A stretch of 64,000 nucleotides of DNA from an uncultured Spirochaetota bacterium (GTDB lineage: Bacteria > Spirochaetota > UBA4802 > UBA5550), in assembly GCA_937872225.1 (NCBI GenBank), contig CALMRZ010000032.1, positions 1-64,000 of the forward strand. The letters run 5' to 3'. The position numbers were made by a program, and so were the translations under genes. The notes beneath the pieces are model-generated. The model saw nothing but the letters and a program-made list of their open reading frames with translations, had not been told where the DNA came from and did no database searches. This document shows, in pieces, positions 38,303 through 57,196 of this stretch. The stretch's first letter is position 1, and each line of letters opens with the position of its first letter.

Positions 38303-39898
38303 TCATGTGCTCCGGAAGCGTTTCACCAGTAACACCTGGTTTCCCTTCGTGTTATACCGGACCTCGTCGAATATTTGCATGGTCATCTGGATGCCCCGGC
38401 CGTGGGGAAGCAATTCCTCACCGGCATTGTCTGGTTCTCTCTTCATCACCCAAGCGTGATCGAAACCGTTTCCTTCATCCGTAATCCGGTATATGACCCT
38501 GTCTTCTTTAATGGCATAATCGACGTACACTTTTTTATTGCGGCAGGCGTTTTCCTGCTGCCGCCGCGACAGCAGGTTGAAGTAATCATCAGCCGCCAGG
38601 GCTGCCGATTTTTCACTGAACGATATTCCCAGATTGCCGTGCTCGATGGCGTTGATGATGATCTCGCGAAGTGCAAGGCGTATCATTTTGCCTTCACCGC
38701 GCCCCAGCCGCCTGTCCAGGAGCTCGGTGATCCGAAACGCAGCCTCATCCGCCGCGAGGATGGAATTCCCGATCTCAATCGCAAGCCGCTCCCGCAGGAT
38801 GTATTTTTGTATCGAGTCCTCCGCGGCAATTGATGCTCTTCCCAGGATCTCCTGTATTCCCTCGACATCAAGGCACTCCAGCCTCATGTTCATTGTCCTG
38901 GATTCCTTCAGGTACGGCATCTTGAAATCAACCTTGAACTGCACCGGCGTCCGCTCCCTCGAAAAGCGCTCAAGATTTGATTTCACCAGTTCCTCGGTCA
39001 GGTCCTTGCCGTCCATGTCGTCACGTATAAAATCAAGGAGATACCGGCCCTGCAGTTTTTCCGGCGCCATATTGAAATGCTTTTTAACGGCGCTATTCAC
39101 CGTAACAATATTCCAGCCGTCATCGAGGGTAAAGATAATCTCATCTGAATTTTCCACTATCCGTCGGTATTTCTCCTCTGAAAGCCGGAGGGTCTTTCCC
39201 GTTTCGGCGAGGTCCCTGGATTTCTCGCGGATATTGCTCTCCAGCCTGGACCGCTCCACAATGATCCGCCGCGCCAGGTTGAAGCTGAAAACAGAAGCAA
39301 TCAGCAGCTGGACGACAAGGGCGCCCAGGAGCATATTCAGATAAAAGGTGTTGATGGTGCCCACCTTTGCCTCGGAGATGCTTTTTATGCCGGCGACTAT
39401 CTCATCTATCCCCCGGAGGATTCTTTCGTCCTTGCCTCCGGCGCGGTCGATGACGCGTTCCCTTCGGGCAAATCCCTTGTCATTCAGCTCAACCAGGAGC
39501 GTTATATATTCGGAGGATATGGCGGTATGCAGAGCCGCAAGGTCGCCGATCCTGAGGGTGATGCCGTTAAAATCCGAGCAGGTGGTTTTCAGGTTGAACA
39601 GCAGGTCCTGAATCATGGCGCTATACCTCGAAAAGAGCAGGTATTCCCTGCGATAAACCCCGGGATCGTCGCCCTCCATGACGATCCTCCGCCAGGTCTG
39701 GAACTGCTTCTGCATCAGGACCTGGACCTCCCGCGCATGGTCAACGGCATCAATATAATCCTTCGAGTCCTGGTTCGATTTATAAATCGAATAGAAACCC
39801 ATAACTCCCGTTGTGACTATTATCACGATGAGGAAGATTGCCCCGAAAATGATCTGCCGGTTCCTCCGGTACCCGCTCAGCCTTTCATTGATGGACAT
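38303..39898 (-). CDS. PAS sensor with RsbW-type HATPase domain
   Basis: This 531-residue membrane sensor has a helix near residues 14-36, an extracytoplasmic domain, and a second helix near 200. A PAS domain follows (EEKYRRIVENSDEIIFTLDDGW), then a C-terminal ATPase domain with the N-box ALREIIINAIEHGN and G-boxes ITDEGNGFDHAW and LLPHGRGIQM. No histidine-phosphorylation H-box (HExxP) precedes the ATPase domain, so it looks like an anti-sigma/RsbW-type kinase output and not a classical two-component kinase. This architecture is frequent in spirochaetes. A SpoIIE phosphatase at 44765 could be its functional counterpart. Confidence 0.78.
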   Translation of the reverse strand: MSINERLSGYRRNRQIIFGAIFLIVIIVTTGVMGFYSIYKSNQDSKDYIDAVDHAREVQVLMQKQFQTWRRIVMEGDDPGVYRREYLLFSRYSAMIQDLLFNLKTTCSDFNGITLRIGDLAALHTAISSEYITLLVELNDKGFARRERVIDRAGGKDERILRGIDEIVAGIKSISEAKVGTINTFYLNMLLGALVVQLLIASVFSFNLARRIIVERSRLESNIREKSRDLAETGKTLRLSEEKYRRIVENSDEIIFTLDDGWNIVTVNSAVKKHFNMAPEKLQGRYLLDFIRDDMDGKDLTEELVKSNLERFSRERTPVQFKVDFKMPYLKESRTMNMRLECLDVEGIQEILGRASIAAEDSIQKYILRERLAIEIGNSILAADEAAFRITELLDRRLGRGEGKMIRLALREIIINAIEHGNLGISFSEKSAALAADDYFNLLSRRQQENACRNKKVYVDYAIKEDRVIYRITDEGNGFDHAWVMKREPDNAGEELLPHGRGIQMTMQIFDEVRYNTKGNQVLLVKRFRST

Positions 39899-40199
39899 AG
39901 CCGTATACAATCCTGCTGAAAATTCAAAACCGGCCTTATCGTACGCACAATTGCATGAGGTATTTATGATTCTGATATTAAGATATCATGAATTTTTCCG
40001 GTGTTGAGCCGTCGGTTCCCCGGTTTGGGCGCCCCGGCCGGCACATATACCGCCCTATGCCGCCCATTTCTGATACCGCGGAGAGCCAGGGCTGCCACAA
40101 TTCATATTTTCTTTATATTCCCAAAACAATATCCAAACAGGTTTCGAATATGCTGACATTAAAAAAGATCGCACAAGGAGTGAATACACAGACGTCGTT
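39899..40199. promoter_or_regulatory. 301-bp divergent spacer with PHO-box-like repeats
   Basis: No gene is seen. Phased repeats TTCAT at 40101 and TTTAT at 40112, 11 bp apart, point towards the PHP gene and match the PHO-box pattern found at pstS, pstB and pstC. Only two good units are present, so this is the weakest of the series. Confidence 0.4.
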
Positions 40200-40952
40200 A
40201 TGCCGCAAACAACAATAAACCACCCTCAAACATTCACCAGTGAATTGCTGGGCGAGATCCAGGCTTTCCTGAAGCAGCAGGAAAAAAAGTTTCCCCGTGA
40301 CGAAACCCTTACCATCGACCTTCACTGTCACGATCACAACAGCAGCACGCCGGACGAGCTCCTGGGGCGCATCCTCAACATCCCGGAAACATGGCTTCCC
40401 AGCGAGGACCTGATCGAGATTCTCAAGGGCCACGGCTGCGACACCTTCACCGTGACCAACCACAACAACGCGCGGTCATGTTATGAGCTGCGCGAAAGGG
40501 GGGTGGACGTCCTCACCGGCGCGGAATTCACCTGCCAGGTGCCGGACTACCGCGTCGGCACACACGTCCTCGCCTACGGGTTCACGCCGAGCCAGGAGAC
40601 GATGCTGGAAAAACTGAGAAGCGACATCTACCGCTTCCAGGATTATGCGGCGGAGAATGACATCCCCACGATCTGGGCCCATCCCCTCTACCACTATCAC
40701 CGCGGCGAGATGCCGCCGATCGAATTCTTCGAGAAAATGGCCCTGGTGTTCGAGCGGTTCGATACCATCACCGTCCTTGTTGACGAATTCAATTGCGGCC
40801 CTGACCGCTTCGTTGAGATCGTAGACGGTCCCGATCATCCACCGGTAGTCGTTGGCGTGATTGGCCCAGTCTATGTCCCCTTGTTCGAACATGACGGAAA
40901 AGCCGTTTGGGTTCCCGCCCAGGGCCTGGAGGGTGGACTTCACCATTTCTGA
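40200..40952 (+). pseudogene. PHP-domain phosphoesterase, truncated at a rearrangement junction
   Basis: The first 190 or so residues are a recognisable PHP domain: TIDLHCHDHNSSTPDEL with metal-binding histidines, TVTNHNNARS, LTGAEFTC and IWAHPLYHYHRGE. After about base 40765 the frame reads antisense through the 3' part of the converging alkaline-phosphatase remnant, so the residues after ERFDTI are not native. The authentic C-terminus is missing. PHP proteins hydrolyse phosphate esters, which fits the phosphate-starvation setting. Whether the shortened protein is active is unknown. The ATG at 40200 has only a distant AAGGAG, so the start is uncertain. Confidence 0.7.
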
Positions 40953-41877
40953 AAGCTGGGGGTTCTCCTCATTCATCGTGAATTGTGGCTTTCCGGGATT
41001 GTCGGCCGGAACCGGAGGTTCCAACATGCCGCCGGATCCGCAGAAGAGGCCAAAGAGCTTCTTCCCCTTCTTCCTGGCTTCTTTTGCCGCCCTGGCCAGG
41101 GCCTTCCCGCCGTCAGAACCGGCCGTTCTTTCCACAAAGACATACTCACCCGATGTTTTCAGGGTACTGTAATCGGTTTCAGGCAGAAACTTGAATTTTC
41201 CCGGCTCCCAGTTCGGGTGGCCGGCGCCGACCACCACATCGGGCTTCACGACCGACGCGATCTCGTGCCCTATCTGGCCGTAGTTGTTGCGGCTCACGTT
41301 GTTGCTCGCGAAGCAGGCCGGCGTGGCATGTGAAAATTCCACGGTGCTGACGATCCCGAAGGAAAAACCGAGCCCGTGGCGGAGGTCTTCCGTGATGGCG
41401 CGCAGGGCGCCGTCCGCCGGGTCGCCGCTCTTCCAGTTTACCTTGCCGCCATCGGTCTGATAGCCCGTTGAGACCGCCGTTGCGGCGGACGCTGAACCAG
41501 TCGCCGAACCATGGGTGATGAAATATTCGAACTGAGTGTCGAGGTTTGCAAGCGGATACGGCCTGTCTCCCCCCAGTTCAGGATTGTAGCCGAGGACAGG
41601 ATCATAATTTTCAGGATCGTAGGTCCCGGCGCCGTTGAGCGTGGCGTAATGGTTATACGGCGACACGTCCCAGGTCGTGCAGTACCCCCCGGCAGGGGAA
41701 CCGGTGAAACACCAGACCGTTGTCCCAGCCGGTCAGACACCGGCTCGCGGCAATCTCCTGCTCCAGGTGCATCCCGTCGCCGATAAACAAGATCACGTGC
41801 TTCGTTCCTCCGCTGTCGTAACAGCCGATCATCAGGCCGATCAGGAGAACCGATAAAACGACTTCCAGTTTTTTCAT
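40768..41877 (-). pseudogene. phoA: Alkaline phosphatase lipoprotein, frameshifted and 3'-truncated
   Basis: The N-terminal part (41877 to about 41690) encodes a lipoprotein signal (LIGLMIGC) and the metal-site motif KHVILFIGDGMH of PhoA-like phosphatases. The frame then shifts at a C6 tract (41685-41690, G6 on the coding strand). Removing one G joins it to GYCTTWDVSPYNHY and the remaining body. The body includes the nucleophile region HGSATGSASAATA, the GGKVNW block and DIDWANHANDYRW. Similarity stops at VNKDGD near 40770, before the conserved C-terminal DHE-type metal ligands, where PHP-gene sequence begins. As it stands it cannot make a complete enzyme. Confidence 0.8.
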
Positions 41878-46133: not shown

Positions 46134-46226
46134 TTTTGATATTCCCACCATACAGAATACGCTGCTGGCCGGTCATGGACGTTTCCGGATTTCCTTGAAA
46201 ATTGAAATCCCCAAATTCAGATAATC

Positions 46227-46259
46227 TTTAATAATGCTTCACAAATAATTTACAACAGC
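46227..46259 (+). promoter_or_regulatory. PHO-box-like repeats upstream of the acyltransferase gene
   Basis: Three 11-bp units begin TTTAA at 46227, TTCAC at 46238 and TTTAC at 46249, in the direction of the acyltransferase gene that starts at 46311. The period and TTxAx core equal those of the pst promoters. Confidence 0.55.
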
Positions 46260-46310
46260 ACGTTACGTTATCGATAAATTCTGGTGTTTATAGCTAAATC
46301 AGGAGGTCTC

Positions 46311-47120
46311 ATGGAAGATTGCACAATACAGTGGGACACATATCATGTTAATGATACGAAAAACCCTAAGCGGAGTGTGGCGCGCGCCCTGGTGAGACTT
46401 GTTCTCTATGTCCTGATAACAATGATCCATGTCATAGGCGCCTCGGTACGCAATCTCATCCATCGGCACACCGATTCAGGTTCGCAAAAGCGGGACATGG
46501 GCATTCTCCAGCGGTGGGCTCGGCACCTCAACCGCGCCCTGGGTCTCGAGGTATCCGTGAAGGGCGCGCCTCCCGAAGACGGCGTCCTCCTGGTGAGCAA
46601 CCACCGTTCTTACATGGACATCACCGCCATCGGAGAGCTGGCTCCCGTGACCTTTCTGGCCAAGCACGAGGTTTCCCGGTGGCCCGTGCTGGGGCACGGA
46701 TGCCGCCTGGTCGATGTCGTCTTCGTGGACCGTGAAAGCGCCGAAAGCAGGCGCCGCTCGAGGAACAGCGTCGCGAGCCGCCTCCGGCGGGGAATTTCCA
46801 TCGTGGTTTTTCCCGAGGGCACCTCCTACGAGGGGCCCGGGCTGCTGACCTTCAAGCCCGGCATCTTCCAGGTCGCCGCGCAAAACCGCTTTCCCGTCAT
46901 GCCCGTGGCCATATCGTACGAAGACCCCGATGACGCATGGGTGGGCGATGATACTTTTTTTCGCCACTTCATGCAAACCTTCTCAAAACGGCGTATCCCC
47001 GTGACCGTGCACTTCGGCCCCATCATGAAGGGAGACGATCCCGTCAGCCTGATGAAATCGTCATGGAAATGGGTCAGTTCCGCCCTTAGTCCCAATGATG
47101 AATACGGCAAGGTTTCATAA
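46311..47120 (+). CDS. PlsC/OlsA-like 1-acyl-glycerol-phosphate acyltransferase
   Basis: This 269-residue membrane acyltransferase has an N-terminal hydrophobic segment and the catalytic NHRSYMD (HX4D) near residue 98. The substrate motif FPEGTSYEGPG near residue 168 and the PVAISYE block are also present. AGGAGG right before the ATG at 46311 decides the start over 46284. PlsC-like proteins acylate lysophosphatidate or, as OlsA, lyso-ornithine lipid. Its PHO-box-like promoter and the GNAT-like gene 23 bp downstream favour a role in lipid remodelling under phosphate limitation. Confidence 0.87.
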   Translation: MEDCTIQWDTYHVNDTKNPKRSVARALVRLVLYVLITMIHVIGASVRNLIHRHTDSGSQKRDMGILQRWARHLNRALGLEVSVKGAPPEDGVLLVSNHRSYMDITAIGELAPVTFLAKHEVSRWPVLGHGCRLVDVVFVDRESAESRRRSRNSVASRLRRGISIVVFPEGTSYEGPGLLTFKPGIFQVAAQNRFPVMPVAISYEDPDDAWVGDDTFFRHFMQTFSKRRIPVTVHFGPIMKGDDPVSLMKSSWKWVSSALSPNDEYGKVS

Positions 47121-47143
47121 TAAAAAGCAAGGAAGGGTGTCTC

Positions 47144-48055
47144 ATGAAAAAAGAAAAAACAAAAAATGAAGTGCCATTCAGGCTGAAATTCTTTCCTCCT
47201 AACGGCAACGACAGAACGCGGAACAATAACGCCGGCAATGGAATGAAAAAGGCATCATACCGCTTTCAATTCCTCTACCGTCCGGGATTGCACCTGGATG
47301 ACGGCAAGCTCAGGCGAATTATCGATGAAATGCGCCGCGTGGCAGCCTCCTGTTTCGAGGAAATCCCCGAATATCAGGCAATGACCGGCTGCAGAAAAGA
47401 ACTGACGGATACGGTCATAGCCGTCGCCTGGCGGAGCGACGGGACCATGGCCGGTTTCTGTTCGACCGTCATTCTCCCTGTCACCGGCGTCGGCGACGTT
47501 CAGCACCTGGGACTCACCTGCGTGAGACCGGAGGACCGGAGCAACGGCCTGACCCATATCCTGACCCACAAGGCAGTTGCCGGATACCTGGTGCGGCACA
47601 AGCCGGTGGTCGGGAAGCTATGGGTCAGCAACTGCGCTGCGGTGCTTTCAAGCCTGGTCAACGTATCCCTCCATTTCGAGCAGGTGTACCCTTCGCCTTT
47701 TGGCGCAACGCGGCTTACCGAAAAACACCGCAAAATTGCCGAGGCCATCGACCGGCACTACCGCCATAAAATATATATCCACCGCGACGCGACTTTTGAT
47801 ACCGATGCTTTCGTTTTTCGGGGAAGCGTCAAGGGCACCATGTTCCAGAAAGATTCCGGTGAAACATGTTATTACCACCGCAATCGCGACCTTAACGAAT
47901 TTTACAAGGACCGCATGGTCTTCGAAAACGGCGACGAGGTTCTCCAGGTAGGATACGCCACAACCCTAGCTGCGGTCCGGCACATGCTCCGGAACATGCC
48001 CTTGCCGAAGCCAGGGATGAAGTCTAAAAATGAAAAGCGGATGCCTGCTGCTTGA
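47144..48055 (+). CDS. GNAT-like protein, possibly an N-acyltransferase
   Basis: This 303-residue protein has a GNAT-like centre: a strand-rich segment (DTVIAVAWRSDGTMAGFCSTVILP) followed by LGLTCVRPEDRSNGLTHILTHKAVAGYL, which resembles the acyl-CoA-binding motif R-x-x-G and its helix. The ends show no known domain. It is cotranscribed with the PlsC-like acyltransferase. The pairing recalls OlsB-OlsA of ornithine lipid synthesis, where OlsB is a GNAT-type N-acyltransferase, but the sequence lacks an OlsB signature that I can recognise. An unusual AAAAA-rich start region follows the GGAAGG ribosome-binding site. Confidence 0.55.
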   Translation: MKKEKTKNEVPFRLKFFPPNGNDRTRNNNAGNGMKKASYRFQFLYRPGLHLDDGKLRRIIDEMRRVAASCFEEIPEYQAMTGCRKELTDTVIAVAWRSDGTMAGFCSTVILPVTGVGDVQHLGLTCVRPEDRSNGLTHILTHKAVAGYLVRHKPVVGKLWVSNCAAVLSSLVNVSLHFEQVYPSPFGATRLTEKHRKIAEAIDRHYRHKIYIHRDATFDTDAFVFRGSVKGTMFQKDSGETCYYHRNRDLNEFYKDRMVFENGDEVLQVGYATTLAAVRHMLRNMPLPKPGMKSKNEKRMPAA

Positions 48056-48067
48056 TCAGTTTCATCC

Positions 48068-48109
48068 GGGATACCGGGAAACCCATAATCCGGGTTTTCC
48101 GGGCATCCC
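48068..48109 (+). terminator. Long hairpin after the GNAT-like gene
   Basis: GGGATACCGGGAAACCC and GGGTTTTCCGGGCATCCC pair with few mismatches around a 7-base loop. It lies just after the GNAT-like stop codon. There is no clear T-run, so Rho-independent termination is likely only in part. Confidence 0.5.
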
Positions 48110-48204
48110 AATGAAAATTACCACGCGTAAATCCTGTGCGGATAACGGCATTGTGCCGAAAATTCATGGATACAGCTTAAAAAAATTAAAAAACCCGATC
48201 CGTT

Positions 48205-48248
48205 TTTATTTTTTATTAATAATTCCTTTATAATTTCTTAATAATTTT
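48205..48248 (+). promoter_or_regulatory. PHO-box-like repeats upstream of pstC
   Basis: Four consecutive 11-bp units begin TTTAT at 48205, TTAAT at 48216, TTTAT at 48227 and TTAAT at 48238, pointing to pstC at 48267. The units share AATT(T/C)C-type second halves. This is the longest uninterrupted set on the plus strand, although the region is AT-rich. Confidence 0.6.
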
Positions 48249-48266: not shown

Positions 48267-49220
48267 ATGGACGCGCGACGTATGCAACATCCGTCTGTTG
48301 AAACCGACATGACCGAAAAAGAAAAACGGAATACCCGCATAGGCATGAGCCTTGTTGCTGAGAATTTTTTCGAAAAATTCTTCATGATCATTGGATTATC
48401 ATGCCTGTTCGTCCTTCTCCTCATCATGATTTTCCTTTTTACCGAGGGAATCCCGATCCTGAAAGACGTGAGCATAACCGATTTCCTCCTCGGGACCCAG
48501 TGGTATCCCACCAGCGTCAATCCACGCTTCGGGATACTGCCCCTCATCGCCGCGTCCGTTGCAGTCACCCTCCTCGCTTCCTTCTTCGCGGTGCCCCTGT
48601 CCCTGGCGATAGCCGTGTACCTTGCCGAGCTGGCGTCTCCCCGGGTGAGGGAATTCGTGAAGCCCGCTGTCGAGGTGATCGCGTCAATACCGTCGGTCAT
48701 TATCGGCTTCTTCGGCATGGTGGTGGTGGCGCCCTTTCTCCAGCGTTATTGTAACATCGACACGGGCCTTAACCTCTTCAACGCGTCCCTGATGCTCGCC
48801 TTCATGGCCATACCGACCATCGCCAGCATCTCCGAGGACGCCATCTCCTCGGTGCCCATGTCCCTCAAGGAGGCGTCCTATGCCCTGGGGGCGGACCGGT
48901 GGGAGACGATCTTCCATATCACCATTCCCGCAGCCCTGTCCGGGATCTGGACCGCCATCATCCTGGGCATTTCGCGGGTCATCGGCGAAACCATGGTGGT
49001 CCTCATGGTGGCCGGCGGCGCCGCCGTTATGCCGGGGTCTCTCTTTGATCCGGTCAGGCCCCTCACCTCGAACATTGCGGCGGAAATGGCGGAGGCCCCC
49101 GTCGGCGGGAGCCACTACCACGCCCTCTTCGCCATTGGCATCATCCTTTTCATAATAACATTCTTCTTCAACTTAATTGCCGATTACCTTTCCAGCAAGT
49201 ATAAGTTCAAGGGAAACTGA
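48267..49220 (+). CDS. pstC: Phosphate ABC transporter permease PstC
   Basis: This 317-residue inner-membrane permease of the high-affinity phosphate importer has about six helices. It carries the PstC-type sequence LIAASVAVTLLASFFAVPLSLAIAVYLAE and the ABC-permease EAA loop (EASYALGADRWETIFHITIPAALSGI, cited in part). No clear ribosome-binding site precedes either candidate ATG (48267 or 48309), so the start is uncertain. pstA follows at 49222. Confidence 0.92.
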   Translation: MDARRMQHPSVETDMTEKEKRNTRIGMSLVAENFFEKFFMIIGLSCLFVLLLIMIFLFTEGIPILKDVSITDFLLGTQWYPTSVNPRFGILPLIAASVAVTLLASFFAVPLSLAIAVYLAELASPRVREFVKPAVEVIASIPSVIIGFFGMVVVAPFLQRYCNIDTGLNLFNASLMLAFMAIPTIASISEDAISSVPMSLKEASYALGADRWETIFHITIPAALSGIWTAIILGISRVIGETMVVLMVAGGAAVMPGSLFDPVRPLTSNIAAEMAEAPVGGSHYHALFAIGIILFIITFFFNLIADYLSSKYKFKGN

Positions 49221-49221
49221 T

Positions 49222-50088
49222 ATGATTTCACGGCATGCAAAATCCGAAGCGATCGAAAAGACCATGTTCGGGCTGATACGGGTGATGTCCTACGCGGTGC
49301 TGGGGGCCCTTGTCTTCATCGTCGGATTCATCGTCATGAAGGGCTATTCTGCCATATCCTGGGAATTCATTTCCGAAATGCCGATGAACGAGATGACCCG
49401 GGGAGGCATCTTCCCGGCGATACTCGGCACCTTTTATCTGATGATAGGTTCGGCCCTGGTGTCGATCCCCATAGGCATCATAACCGCGATCTATCTTACG
49501 GAATACGCAAAAAAACCGGCCCTGGTAAAGGTCATCCGCCTCGGGGTGAGCAACCTGGCCGGGGTCCCCTCCGTGGTATTCGGCCTCTTCGGCCTGGCCC
49601 TCTTCGTGGTGTTCCTCGACTTCGGCACCTCCATCATCGCCGGGTCCCTCACCCTGGGCGTTCTGAACCTGCCGGTGATCATCCGGGCCACGGAGGAGGC
49701 GCTGATGACGGTGCCCATGACCTACCGCGAGGCGTCCCTGTCCCTGGGGGCGACGCGGCTCCAGACCATTTTCAGGATCGTGCTTCCCAGCGCCCTGCCC
49801 GGCGTCCTCACCGGGGTGATGCTCTCCCTGGGACGCGCGGCGGGCGAGACCGCCCCCATCATGTTCACCGCCGCGTCCTACTACGCCCCGGACCTGCCCA
49901 ATTCGGTCTTCAGCGAGGTCATGGCCCTTCCCTACCACATCTACGTGATGGCAACGGCGGGAACGCACATCCAGGAGACGCGGCACCTCCAGTACGGCAC
50001 CGCCATAATCCTCATCATCCTCGTGCTGATGCTCAACTCGATCGGACTGGTGATGCGCTACCGCTTCAGGAAGCGCCTGAAGGGGTAA
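49222..50088 (+). CDS. pstA: Phosphate ABC transporter permease PstA
   Basis: This 288-residue partner permease has about six helices. The EAA-loop region YREASLSLGATRLQTIFRIVLPSA (in part) and GRAAGETAPIMFTAA mark it as PstA. The ATG at 49222 lies 1 bp after the pstC stop; the frame start at 49177 is inside pstC. The operon ends here, and the ATPase PstB and the binding protein PstS are encoded separately 6-7 kb away. Confidence 0.92.
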   Translation: MISRHAKSEAIEKTMFGLIRVMSYAVLGALVFIVGFIVMKGYSAISWEFISEMPMNEMTRGGIFPAILGTFYLMIGSALVSIPIGIITAIYLTEYAKKPALVKVIRLGVSNLAGVPSVVFGLFGLALFVVFLDFGTSIIAGSLTLGVLNLPVIIRATEEALMTVPMTYREASLSLGATRLQTIFRIVLPSALPGVLTGVMLSLGRAAGETAPIMFTAASYYAPDLPNSVFSEVMALPYHIYVMATAGTHIQETRHLQYGTAIILIILVLMLNSIGLVMRYRFRKRLKG

Positions 50089-52196: not shown

Positions 52197-53930
52197 TCAT
52201 ATTCCAATAATGAACTTCGTTCCCGACGATGAAGAAGTCACGTTGATGCTCCATCCCAGTATCTCCGCCGCGTGCTTCACGATCGACAGCCCCAGGCCGG
52301 TCCCCCCGGTGGCGCGGGACCTGCTTTTGTCGACCCGGTAAAACCGCTCGAACACGCGGTCGAGGGATTCCTCGGGAATGCCGATGCCGGTATCAACAAT
52401 GGCAACGGTGACGCCCCCGCCGGATTTTTCCATGTCCACGGTGATCGACCCTCCCTCGACGTTATAATTGATGGCATTGTCAATTATGTTGAAAAAGATC
52501 TCCTCCGCTAAAAAACGATTACCGGCAATCCGGGCGTTCTGGCCGTCCGTGTTGAAGGTTATGGCGACATTCTTCTTCTGCGCCTTGGGTCCGAGGATAT
52601 CGATGCTGGTTCCTATTATCTCCCGCACGTCTATGTATTCCGTGGTGAATTCCCGCGATGTTTCAATACGGTTCAGCTTCAGTATATCGTTAATGAGGGA
52701 ACTCTGGCGGTCGACGTTCGCGAGGGCCTTCTGGAGAAGTTCTTTCGACATGACCGGGTCTGCAAGGTGCGGCTCCATGGTCTCAAGATAGCCTTTTAAA
52801 ATAGCGATAGGCGTTTTCAGTTCGTGGGACATGTTGCTTACCAGGTCCGTCTTCATCTGCTCGACCTTTTTCTTCTCGGTGGTGTCGTGAAGAACGATGA
52901 GTATCCCGCCGGGATTCTCATCGCCCGCGATGGGGTTGATAAAAACGTCGCAATGCCTGCCGCTGAGAAACGTCTCCTCAAAACTCATCGCGATGTTTGT
53001 TCCATGGGTCTGCTCGATCCGTGAATTCAGACTGCGATTGCGTATTGCTTCAAAAAAAAGCTTGCCCACCACTTCAGACTCGATACCCAGGAGCGACTTG
53101 AAAGCCCGGTTGGCGATCAGGATTGTCTTGTCACGTCCGACAACGGCAATGCCATCGTGAATGCTCTCGATGGTTATTTCCAGCTTGTTCTGCTCAAAGA
53201 GGAGCGAATTGATCTTTTCCACGACAGTATCCGCCAGACGGTTCAGCGCCTTCTGCAGGGTCCCGATCTCGTCATCGCTGTAATTGGAGATCCTCCGTGA
53301 AAATTCTCCGTTGGAAAAATCGCGGGCAAATCGCACGGTCTCATTGATGGGCCTGGTAATTCTCCGGGTCACCAGGATGACGATAAGCAGCGACAAGGCC
53401 AGGGCGATGCCGCCGGCCATCAGGATGTATCCCCGGAGCAGCGCGATGTTCTCATCCACTTCGCGCAGCGGCTTGGCAAGACGAATGATCTCGGCATCGA
53501 ATTTTTTCGCCATATACAGCATGTCGGTCCGGAGGGTGGAACTGTAGCGTATGCTTTCGCCCGTTCCCCGGTTTATTGCGTCCTTGATTTCAACCCGGTA
53601 ACGATGGTTGTCCATGCCGTCTATATTTTCATATTCCGAATCGGCAATGACCTTGCCGTTGAAGTCTACCAGCGTAATGCGCAGGTTGATTATGGCGGAA
53701 AGCTCCCGGATCCGCTTTTCCCGGAGGTCCGCGGTACCGGCCAGATAGCGTTGCGGCTGGTTGCGTATCTCCAATTCGATGAAGCTGATTTTTTCCGCCA
53801 TTTCGCGCTTGAGGATCGAATGATGGTAGTCCCTTATTTCGTCGATTATCAGCAGCAGAAGCACGGCCACAAGGGTGGCGATAAGGATCATGAACGAGAT
53901 AATGATGCGGTTGCTTATCCGTTTAAACAT
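52197..53930 (-). CDS. phoR: Phosphate-sensor histidine kinase PhoR
   Basis: This 577-residue membrane kinase has two transmembrane helices flanking a long periplasmic domain, and a HAMP-like segment (VTRRITRPINETVRFARDFSNGEF). A PAS domain follows (SIHDGIAVVGRDKTILIANRAF), then the phosphorylation site MSHELKTPIAIL and the ATPase boxes NIIDNAINYN and GTGLGLSIV. It ends the pstB-phoU-phoB-phoR unit and phosphorylates PhoB when phosphate is scarce. Confidence 0.9.
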   Translation of the reverse strand: MFKRISNRIIISFMILIATLVAVLLLLIIDEIRDYHHSILKREMAEKISFIELEIRNQPQRYLAGTADLREKRIRELSAIINLRITLVDFNGKVIADSEYENIDGMDNHRYRVEIKDAINRGTGESIRYSSTLRTDMLYMAKKFDAEIIRLAKPLREVDENIALLRGYILMAGGIALALSLLIVILVTRRITRPINETVRFARDFSNGEFSRRISNYSDDEIGTLQKALNRLADTVVEKINSLLFEQNKLEITIESIHDGIAVVGRDKTILIANRAFKSLLGIESEVVGKLFFEAIRNRSLNSRIEQTHGTNIAMSFEETFLSGRHCDVFINPIAGDENPGGILIVLHDTTEKKKVEQMKTDLVSNMSHELKTPIAILKGYLETMEPHLADPVMSKELLQKALANVDRQSSLINDILKLNRIETSREFTTEYIDVREIIGTSIDILGPKAQKKNVAITFNTDGQNARIAGNRFLAEEIFFNIIDNAINYNVEGGSITVDMEKSGGGVTVAIVDTGIGIPEESLDRVFERFYRVDKSRSRATGGTGLGLSIVKHAAEILGWSINVTSSSSGTKFIIGI

Positions 53931-53939
53931 AACCGGCCC

Positions 53940-54629
53940 TCATTTCTTGAATCCATACCCGACTCCGGAAAATGTCTTAATTACGTTTTTATACGGGCCC
54001 AGCTTTTTCCGGATATTCATCACATGGACATCTATGGTCCGGTCGATGACATACACATCCTGTCCCTTGATGCTGTCGATGATGTTGTCCCGGGTGAAGA
54101 CCTTACCCGGGTTTGCCAGGAGAAGACGGAGGATCTCGAATTCAGTCTTGGTCAGATCGACCCCTTTTCCGTCAACGCAGAGGCTGTAATGGTCGGGATC
54201 AAGCTCAATCCCTTCATGGACAATCGTTTTTGAAATGTGTTCACCGTTTTCCATCCGGGAAAGGCGCCTGAACATGGCCTTGACCCTGGACTTAAGCTCC
54301 TTAACGCTGAAAGGCTTGGTCATGTAATCGTCGCCGCCCAGCTCAAGCCCCAGGACCCGGTCGATCTCATCGGAGCGCGCCGAGAGAAATATGATGGGAA
54401 TACTTTTATAATGTTCCGAAGCGCGAACCCGACGGCAGAACTCGAAGCCGTCGATGCCGGGCATCATGATATCAAGAATAAACAGGTGGGGAACGTCGGT
54501 TTCAAGCGCCCTCAAGGCCTCCTCCGCCGACGAATAGCAATACACATCATACCCTTCAGCCCGCAGGTTTATCTTTATGATATCCTGGATGTCTTTTTCA
54601 TCATCAATGACGAATATCTTTTTTTGCAT
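53940..54629 (-). CDS. phoB: Phosphate response regulator PhoB
   Basis: This 229-residue OmpR-class regulator has a receiver domain with DDE near residue 9 and the phospho-acceptor aspartate in LFILDIMMPG, followed by a winged helix ending in the FSGVGYGFKK wing. Nine bases separate it from phoR. It is the expected binder of the 11-bp direct repeats found upstream of pstS, pstB, pstC, the porin and other genes in this window. Confidence 0.92.
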   Translation of the reverse strand: MQKKIFVIDDEKDIQDIIKINLRAEGYDVYCYSSAEEALRALETDVPHLFILDIMMPGIDGFEFCRRVRASEHYKSIPIIFLSARSDEIDRVLGLELGGDDYMTKPFSVKELKSRVKAMFRRLSRMENGEHISKTIVHEGIELDPDHYSLCVDGKGVDLTKTEFEILRLLLANPGKVFTRDNIIDSIKGQDVYVIDRTIDVHVMNIRKKLGPYKNVIKTFSGVGYGFKK

Positions 54630-55335: not shown

Positions 55336-56091
55336 TTATCCAAACTTACCCGTGATATAATTTTCGGTCATTTCTATGTCCGGCTTGGTGAATATCTTTT
55401 CCGTCGAATTAATTTCTATGAGATCGCCCAGGTAGAAAAATGCGGTTTCATCGCTTACCCGGGCCGCCTGCTGCATATTATGGGTGACGATAATGATGGT
55501 ATAATTCTTTTTGAGGTCCTGTATCAGCTCTTCTATCTTCTGCGTCGAAATGGGGTCCAGTGCCGACGCCGGTTCGTCCATGAGGATGACCTCAGGCTGA
55601 ACCGCGATGGTGCGGGCTATGCAGAGCCGCTGCTGCTGGCCCCCGGACAGGCCCAGGGCAGACTCGTCCAGCCGGTCCTTGACCTCGTCCCACAGGGCGG
55701 TGCTCTTCAGGGACTTTTCGACTATGCTCTCTATCTCGTACTTGTCCTTTATGCCGTTGATCTTCAGGCCGTAGGCAATGTTTTCAAAAATCGACTTCGG
55801 GAAAGGGTTCGATTTCTGGAACACCATACCGACCCTCCGTCGGAGAGACGTTACATTGAACCGGGGATGGTATATCGATTCATTGTCGATATTTATGTCC
55901 CCTTCCACTCTGGTGTTGGGAATGATATCATTCATCCGGTTAATGCACCTGAGAAAGGTGGACTTGCCGCAACCTGAAGGGCCGATAAGGGCCAGGACCG
56001 TGTTGCTCTTTACGGAGAGAGTCACATTTTTTATAGCCGCGGTGGCTCCATAATAAAATGTCAAATTCGAAGCGGTTAATTTTACGGTCAT
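55336..56091 (-). CDS. pstB: Phosphate ABC transporter ATP-binding protein PstB
   Basis: This 251-residue ATPase has Walker [10 protein letters not shown], the PstB-type sequence [17 protein letters not shown], the signature [16 protein letters not shown] and Walker [13 protein letters not shown]. It heads the minus-strand unit pstB-phoU-phoB-phoR and is divergent from pstS across a shared 277-bp promoter with repeats in both directions. Confidence 0.95.
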
Positions 56092-56368: not shown

Positions 56369-57196
56369 ATGAAAAAAATAATAATACTGGCGTGCGCGGC
56401 GGTGATTTCGTTCGCCATGACAGTATCACTGGTTTCCTGCAAGAAAGACAAGGGAAACCGCGTGGTGGTGAAAGGATCAACGACAGTTCTGCCCATAACC
56501 CAAAAGGCCGCTGAGGCTTTCAAGAAAACCGAGGGGATCAATGTGTTTGTCGAGGGAAGCGGTTCGGGAAACGGCATCAAGGCCCTCATTGAAGGGGGCT
56601 GCGACATAGCAAACTCGTCACGCGAAATGAAGGCCGAAGAGAAGGAATCCGCCAAAAAGAAAGGGATTGAGGTCAAGGAAATCCTGATCGCCTATGACAT
56701 GATCGTCCCCATCGTCCATCCGTCAAACCCGGTAAAGAACCTTTCCATGGACCAGCTTAAAGCAATCTATGACGGTTCAATCAAGAACTGGAAGGAACTG
56801 GGCGGCAAGGATGAGAACATTGTCGTTATTTCCCGTGATACCAGCTCCGGGACCTATGAGATCTGGCACGAAAAGGTCATGAAAAAAACAGACGTCCGCG
56901 GCGACGCATTACTCCAGGCCTCCAACGGCGCCATCATAACAACCGTGGCCGGGAATTCCAAGGCGATAGGGTATGTCGGGTTCGGCTATATCAATGACAC
57001 CGTGAAAGGCATTACGGTAAACGGTATCGACGTAACTATTGAGAACGGTAAAACCGGAAAATTTCTGATATCCCGCAAACTGTACATGTATGTCAATAAA
57101 AACAAGCTTTCGGATAAGGCACAAAAATTCATTGATTATCTGCTGAGCGCCGCGGGCCAGACGCTGGTGAGAGAGGCTGGTTATATTCCACTATAA
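56369..57196 (+). CDS. pstS: Phosphate-binding lipoprotein PstS
   Basis: This 275-residue periplasmic solute-binding protein is anchored by a lipobox (SLVSC near residue 28). It contains VVKGSTTVLPITQKAAEAF, GSGSGNGIKALIEG and SSGTYEIWHE, which form the phosphate pocket typical of the family. AGGAGG precedes the ATG. It is monocistronic, ending in a strong terminator, and is divergent from pstB. Confidence 0.93.
   Translation: MKKIIILACAAVISFAMTVSLVSCKKDKGNRVVVKGSTTVLPITQKAAEAFKKTEGINVFVEGSGSGNGIKALIEGGCDIANSSREMKAEEKESAKKKGIEVKEILIAYDMIVPIVHPSNPVKNLSMDQLKAIYDGSIKNWKELGGKDENIVVISRDTSSGTYEIWHEKVMKKTDVRGDALLQASNGAIITTVAGNSKAIGYVGFGYINDTVKGITVNGIDVTIENGKTGKFLISRKLYMYVNKNKLSDKAQKFIDYLLSAAGQTLVREAGYIPL

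Follow-up and report, generated by a model that had tools for sequence, protein, structure and literature searches.

The window analyzed in the present study is a 64-kb stretch of DNA from the genome of an uncultured Spirochaetota bacterium. Within the pst/phoBR cluster of this genome lies a two-gene operon encoding a PlsC/OlsA-type O-acyltransferase and a protein with a predicted GNAT fold, both on the + strand with 23 nt between them. The cluster contains pstC, pstA, a phoU-like gene, phoR- and phoB-like genes, pstB, and pstS, and the main features are as follows.

46215..46258 (+), array of four 11-bp PHO units, found with a weight matrix whose training set was limited to three promoters (pstS, pstC, pstB)
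46311..47120 (+), PlsC/OlsA-type O-acyltransferase, 269 aa (PF01553, E 3e-28)
47144..48055 (+), GNAT-fold protein, 303 aa, a predicted amino-acid N-acyltransferase from a family for which neither Pfam nor NCBIfam has a model
48061..48115 (+), strong hairpin between the pair and pstC (-29.3 kcal/mol, z -4.6)
48215..48247 (+), PHO array of pstC, part of the matrix training set
48267-49220 (+), pstC (TIGR02138 1.8e-87, above cut-off)
49213-50088 (+), pstA (TIGR00974 2.4e-88, above cut-off)
52197-53930 (-), phoR-like sensor kinase (PhoR model 253 bits, below cut-off)
53940-54629 (-), phoB-like regulator (best PhoB models 254.7 bits, with a cut-off of 270, and 225 bits, both below cut-off)
55336-56091 (-), pstB (TIGR00972 2.1e-121)
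56369-57196 (+), pstS (TIGR02136 1.7e-81)

The strand, the spacing, and the PF01553 match bear out the original prediction that a PlsC/OlsA-like acyltransferase and a GNAT-like protein form an operon. For the acyltransferase, the ATG at 46311, with AGGAGGT upstream, is the preferred start, and a longer open reading frame begins with GTG at 46284. The hairpin that follows the pair was not selected in the terminator scan and lacks a T-run, and it is thus possibly a boundary and not a classical terminator. The array at 48215..48247 indicates that pstC has a Pho promoter of its own, and pstB and pstS carry divergent PHO arrays. Elsewhere in the window, an alkaline phosphatase gene at about 40476-41770 (-) is broken by frameshifts, reflecting either decay or an assembly error.

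Tandem 11-bp PHO units, by which a member of the Pho regulon is recognized, were observed in the promoter of the pair, in the order ATTCAGATAAT CTTTAATAATG CTTCACAAATA ATTTACAACAG (46215-46258). Only the window's own pstS, pstC, and pstB promoters served to train the matrix, because an E. coli-type PhoB matrix was not significant at the promoter of the pair (p 0.17); in a few Bdellovibrionota, the E. coli-type matrix gave borderline values (p 0.04-0.09). The three best units score 15.1, a value matched by 0 of 400 dinucleotide shuffles, and across the 64 kb, both strands included, the array ranks second outside the training promoters, with only that at 46134 (-) higher. Three PHO-box-like units had been claimed for this promoter; the array stands, and the count is corrected to four, the last three of which, from 46227, are those noted earlier. 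With the home matrix, arrays were also detected ahead of the orthologous operons in two genomes from another family within the same order, G034 (p 0.007) and G029 (p 0.003), where no pst gene was seen adjoining the pair. Arrays in such relatives, together with those in the window, strengthen the earlier proposal of Pho control, and PhoB-type control of the operon at low phosphate can be inferred from these promoters.

Links to phosphate were also observed in other genomes. In Desulfobacterales, the GNAT promoters have in common an array of three 11-bp units, and a matrix built on the remaining promoters recovers each array in turn (0 of 1000 shuffles). The matrix also finds the pstS promoter of the locus L170 (p 0.005) and does not find the L170 GNAT promoter (p 0.62). 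The p values of these arrays are optimistic, given that the units were selected by eye and that some of the genomes are closely related. Genes for the GNAT protein, the acyltransferase, alkaline phosphatase (phoA), and a YibE/F protein are co-directional in Desulfospira joergensenii (L016) and in G1279 (L166), and phoA and yibE/F adjoin a broken remnant of the pair in a Desulfotignum record. At L170 (5531-11663), a BtaA-type gene (DUF3419, 2e-108) and a methyltransferase gene come after a distant GNAT/acyltransferase pair, with pstS nearby, and this region is a candidate phosphorus-free lipid cluster. In two other Desulfobacterales (L015/L168 and L167), the surroundings of the pair include two glycosyltransferase genes, one of them for a PHP-domain glycosyltransferase.

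The acyltransferase of the window carries PF01553 with the HX4D motif (NHRSYMD) and an FPEG motif, as expected for OlsA, and reads FPEGTS in place of FPEGTR. It scores 116 and 106 bits on OlsA models, short of the 300-bit cut-off of the NCBIfam OlsA equivalog, versus 98 on the PlsC model; the three PlsC paralogues of the same genome score 113-121 on the PlsC model and 42-68 on the OlsA models. In the tree, 14 pair acyltransferases and two OlsB-partner acyltransferases form one clade apart from the PlsCs (100/98). Moreover, Arg159 of Thermotoga maritima PlsC (5KYM, FPEGTR) aligns with the Ser of the window enzyme, and both OlsB partners and those pair enzymes that were read have Ser or Thr at the position, with Arg in the genome's own PlsCs that were read. 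This Arg is thought to coordinate the phosphate of the acceptor (PMC8319176), and its loss fits an acceptor without phosphate. Judged by its sequence, the enzyme is OlsA-like rather than PlsC-like, and a housekeeping PlsC was rejected on the model scores, the tree, and the lost Arg159.

The second protein is more difficult to place. As a single query, it matched nothing in Pfam, including GH3, and nothing convincing in NCBIfam, where the OlsB models were unmatched; PDB sequence searches gave nothing useful, and a single-sequence scan of genome contigs found no relatives. Relatives were obtained through genome searches and one collection scan, in which an alignment query succeeded where the single sequence had failed. 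PF00583 was matched weakly (best 9e-5) by eight of 12 family members, and PF13444 by none of the 12 nor by the window protein in Pfam at E<=10. On these profiles the protein is neither OlsB nor OlsF, and the original prediction that it is not a standard OlsB holds both for the protein alone and for its relatives. The core of the AlphaFold model has pLDDT above 90, and Foldseek returned 248 PDB matches at E<=1e-3, with GNAT structures throughout the matches listed, among which the nearest by fold are acetyltransferases, e.g. NatD and Gcn5. The predicted fold is GNAT, an acyltransferase fold, and the concern raised earlier, that the protein might be unrelated to acyltransferases, is thereby answered at the level of the model.

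A profile search against OlsB had been suggested as a check. In a profile-profile comparison with 14 OlsB proteins, the GNAT family aligned over 79 columns, corresponding to the acyl-donor region of GNAT, with 89% probability (single-comparison P 2e-6). With profile A4, 14 of 14 single OlsB sequences score 23.8-48.7, the generic GNATs of the home genome at most 23.2, and shuffled or reversed OlsB controls (n=56) at most 19.8; two overlapping long open reading frames scored 22.0 and 24.1, outside the acyl-donor region. With the broader profile A7, the score ranges of OlsB and generic GNATs overlap, so the relation of the family to OlsB, which would be a distant one spanning only some 80 columns in the acyl-donor region, is suggestive. 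No reports of this GNAT family were found in the open-access literature.

The pairing of the GNAT protein with the same acyltransferase clade recurs, in both gene orders, in Spirochaetota (G034, G029), Desulfobacterales (L015, L016, L017, L162-L168), a Myxococcota record (L014), and Bdellovibrionota (L018, with one gene in between, L020, L021, L052-L054, L061, L062). The acyltransferase leads in spirochaetes and several Bdellovibrionota, the GNAT gene leads in Desulfobacterales, and the paired genes frequently overlap by 4 nt. Besides the acyltransferase, no recurrent neighbor of the pair hints at function or headgroup; occurrences of an M20 peptidase (L018), a decarboxylase-like reading frame (L019), and a GltS-like carrier (L013) were too few to be of use. 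The family itself is rare and patchy, occurring in 6 of 393 Spirochaetota (two being distant members), 1 of 297 Desulfobacterota, 24 of 241 Bdellovibrionota (some distant), and 13 of 389 genomes in the order of Desulfospira (some distant). Several pair-bearing genomes also contain a PF13444 protein. Some Bdellovibrionota members lack an adjoining acyltransferase, and a divergent branch (L063, L066-L069, L071, L072) adjoins ThiF/E1-like genes with no acyltransferase there, which suggests another use for that branch; thus, not all members of the family need N-acylate for an aminolipid.

The partners of the GNAT protein are shared with real OlsB. In eight genomes of the same order with a strong OlsB match (G023, G024, G027, G031, G033, G036, G040, G045), an alpha/beta-hydrolase is always present, adjoining OlsB in six and on a different contig in two. 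In G039, a gene of this same hydrolase family, whose product has 33% identity to the G027 hydrolase, overlaps the new GNAT gene instead, and the PF13444 protein of that genome (E 7e-15) lies elsewhere, beside a PF19576 gene. G049 is an exception, with the hydrolase present and PF13444 absent. The acyltransferase clade of the pair, in turn, adjoins OlsB in L040 and L100. As hydrolase and acyltransferase clade each occur beside either OlsB or the GNAT protein, all four of the four combinations of N- and O-acyltransferase are found, and this interchange places the GNAT protein at the N-acylation step. In planctomycetes, O-acylation of ornithine lipids by an alpha/beta-hydrolase, OlsI, has been proven (PMC12493201). 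As a separate observation, the neighboring PF13444 and PF19576 acyltransferase genes of G039 (L042) resemble the GlsB/GlsA glycine lipid pair.

The published routes are OlsBA, OlsF, and OlsHI (PMC12493201, PMC12186959, PMC11631085). According to a 2024 review, PF13444 is common to all aminolipid N-acylation enzymes (PMC11631085), GluB and GlsB being PF13444 relatives of OlsB; the GH3-type OlsH, published in 2025, is an exception to this rule (PMC12493201). The operon resembles OlsB/OlsA in having two genes for an N- and an O-acyltransferase, the latter a PF01553 protein of the OlsA type, in Pho control, as in several producers, and in partners that are interchangeable in related genomes, and differs in an N-acyltransferase without PF13444, whose profile similarity is remote and confined to the acyl-donor region. 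OlsF likewise performs two acyl transfers, is under phosphate control in Serratia, Vibrio, and Desulfovibrio, and its homologue is required for the phosphate-dependent ornithine lipid of a sulfate reducer (PMC5193443), but it is a single chain in which an OlsB-like PF13444 domain is fused to a PF19576 O-acyltransferase domain (PMC11631085), whereas the window has separate reading frames, PF01553, and no PF13444. A split OlsF was rejected, since OlsF has the PF13444 domain that the GNAT protein lacks; the NCBIfam OlsF model matches OlsB. The planctomycete OlsH/OlsI system (PMC12493201), a GH3-like enzyme with an alpha/beta-hydrolase, indicates that N-acylation arose more than once, and the hydrolase partner of the G039 GNAT protein can be likened to OlsI at the class level only. 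OlsH, however, is ATP-dependent, and the GH3/OlsH route was rejected for the home genome for want of a GH3 match. SalA, from the synthesis of a sulfur-containing aminolipid (PMC8319176), is also of the OlsA type, and its N-acyltransferase is apparently no OlsB homologue; its motif is HX5D versus HX4D in the window acyltransferase. The home genome (97.7% complete) has zero matches to PF13444 (OlsB) or GH3 (OlsH, PF03321), and the operon would therefore be the sole recognizable route of this kind there.

Considering the operon, the PHO units, the predicted GNAT fold, the OlsA-like clade, the conserved pairing, and the partner interchange with OlsB, all of which were obtained by computation, the best reading is that the pair works like OlsB plus OlsA, with a non-PF13444 GNAT protein for N-acylation. 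Under phosphate scarcity, the most likely product of the operon is an amino-acid membrane lipid free of phosphorus, and we hold it probable that this product is an acyloxyacyl aminolipid, with the GNAT protein as the N-acyltransferase and its partner as the O-acyltransferase. Upon low phosphate, PhoB-type regulation would turn the promoter on through the PHO units. The GNAT protein would then move a fatty acyl group, probably 3-hydroxyacyl, onto the amino group of an amino acid, and the OlsA-like enzyme, as its clade and the lost phosphate-binding Arg suggest, would acylate the hydroxyl of the lyso-lipid. The phosphorus-free lipid would take the place of phospholipid. Ornithine as the headgroup is a guess, possible though doubtful.

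In another explanation, which we consider unlikely, the target of the pair is a phosphorus-free lipid built on diacylglycerol: the acyltransferase would supply or remodel this lipid, and the GNAT protein would acylate an amino headgroup, e.g. that of a BtaA-type product. The L170 arrangement, with the BtaA-type and methyltransferase genes behind the distant pair and pstS nearby, and the glycosyltransferase genes near the pair in L015/L168 and L167 are consistent with this idea; however, BtaA was seen only at the divergent L170 pair and in none of the other loci read, the interchange of partners with OlsB better fits acylation of a free amino acid, and the loss of the phosphate-binding Arg speaks against lysophosphatidate as the acceptor. 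The same loss, together with that interchange, also weighs against two separate pathways co-regulated by phosphate, in which the GNAT protein would be an ordinary acetyltransferase of a headgroup, polyamine, or protein and its partner a stress-induced lysophospholipid acyltransferase.

This second explanation draws on the closest folds among the matches listed, which are acetyltransferases such as NatD and Gcn5, and on the credible Pfam matches, which are to generic GNATs only. We regard it as improbable all the same, considering that the pairing is kept in both gene orders across four phyla and that with profile A4 the OlsB scores exceed those of the genome's generic GNATs, even though the A7 ranges overlap. 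Less probable still is that the GNAT protein makes N-acyl amino acids as signals or surfactants and not a bulk membrane lipid: FeeM and other known synthases of N-acyl amino acids are of the GNAT type and related to the aminolipid enzymes (PMC11631085), and some members of the family lack an adjoining O-acyltransferase, but a membrane lipid with two chains is the better match to the recurrent O-acyltransferase partner and the phosphate control.

If the preferred reading, an aminolipid made by N- and then O-acylation, applies beyond this genome, a previously unrecognized N-acyltransferase family outside PF13444 and GH3 would start a further aminolipid route in Spirochaetota, Desulfobacterales, Bdellovibrionota, and Myxococcota, possibly with an undescribed headgroup, and would be exchangeable with OlsB before either of two unrelated O-acyltransferases. 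We propose this broader claim tentatively, giving it slightly less than an even chance. For want of PF13444 the GNAT protein is no member of OlsB, whereas its likeness to OlsB in working is supported; the family would be new in the role of aminolipid N-acylation, and the N- and O-acylation steps may be exchanged as modules. If the family does carry out this step, surveys based on OlsB and OlsF miss producers in these phyla. The idea is directly testable, since some carriers, Desulfospira joergensenii among them, are in culture.

Further PHO-like arrays were observed in the window. The strongest outside the pst promoters, at 46134-46102 (-), points leftward and is followed by TATAAT and a ribosome-binding site; behind it lies a 49-aa Arg-rich open reading frame (46052-45903, -), possibly a Pho-controlled small basic protein, and next to that a truncated ArsC/LMW-phosphatase-like reading frame. 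Others were located at 40100 (+), 39993 (-), and 38055 (+), one of them directly before a PHP-domain-like reading frame at 40200 and one before a kinase-like reading frame at 38303-39910.
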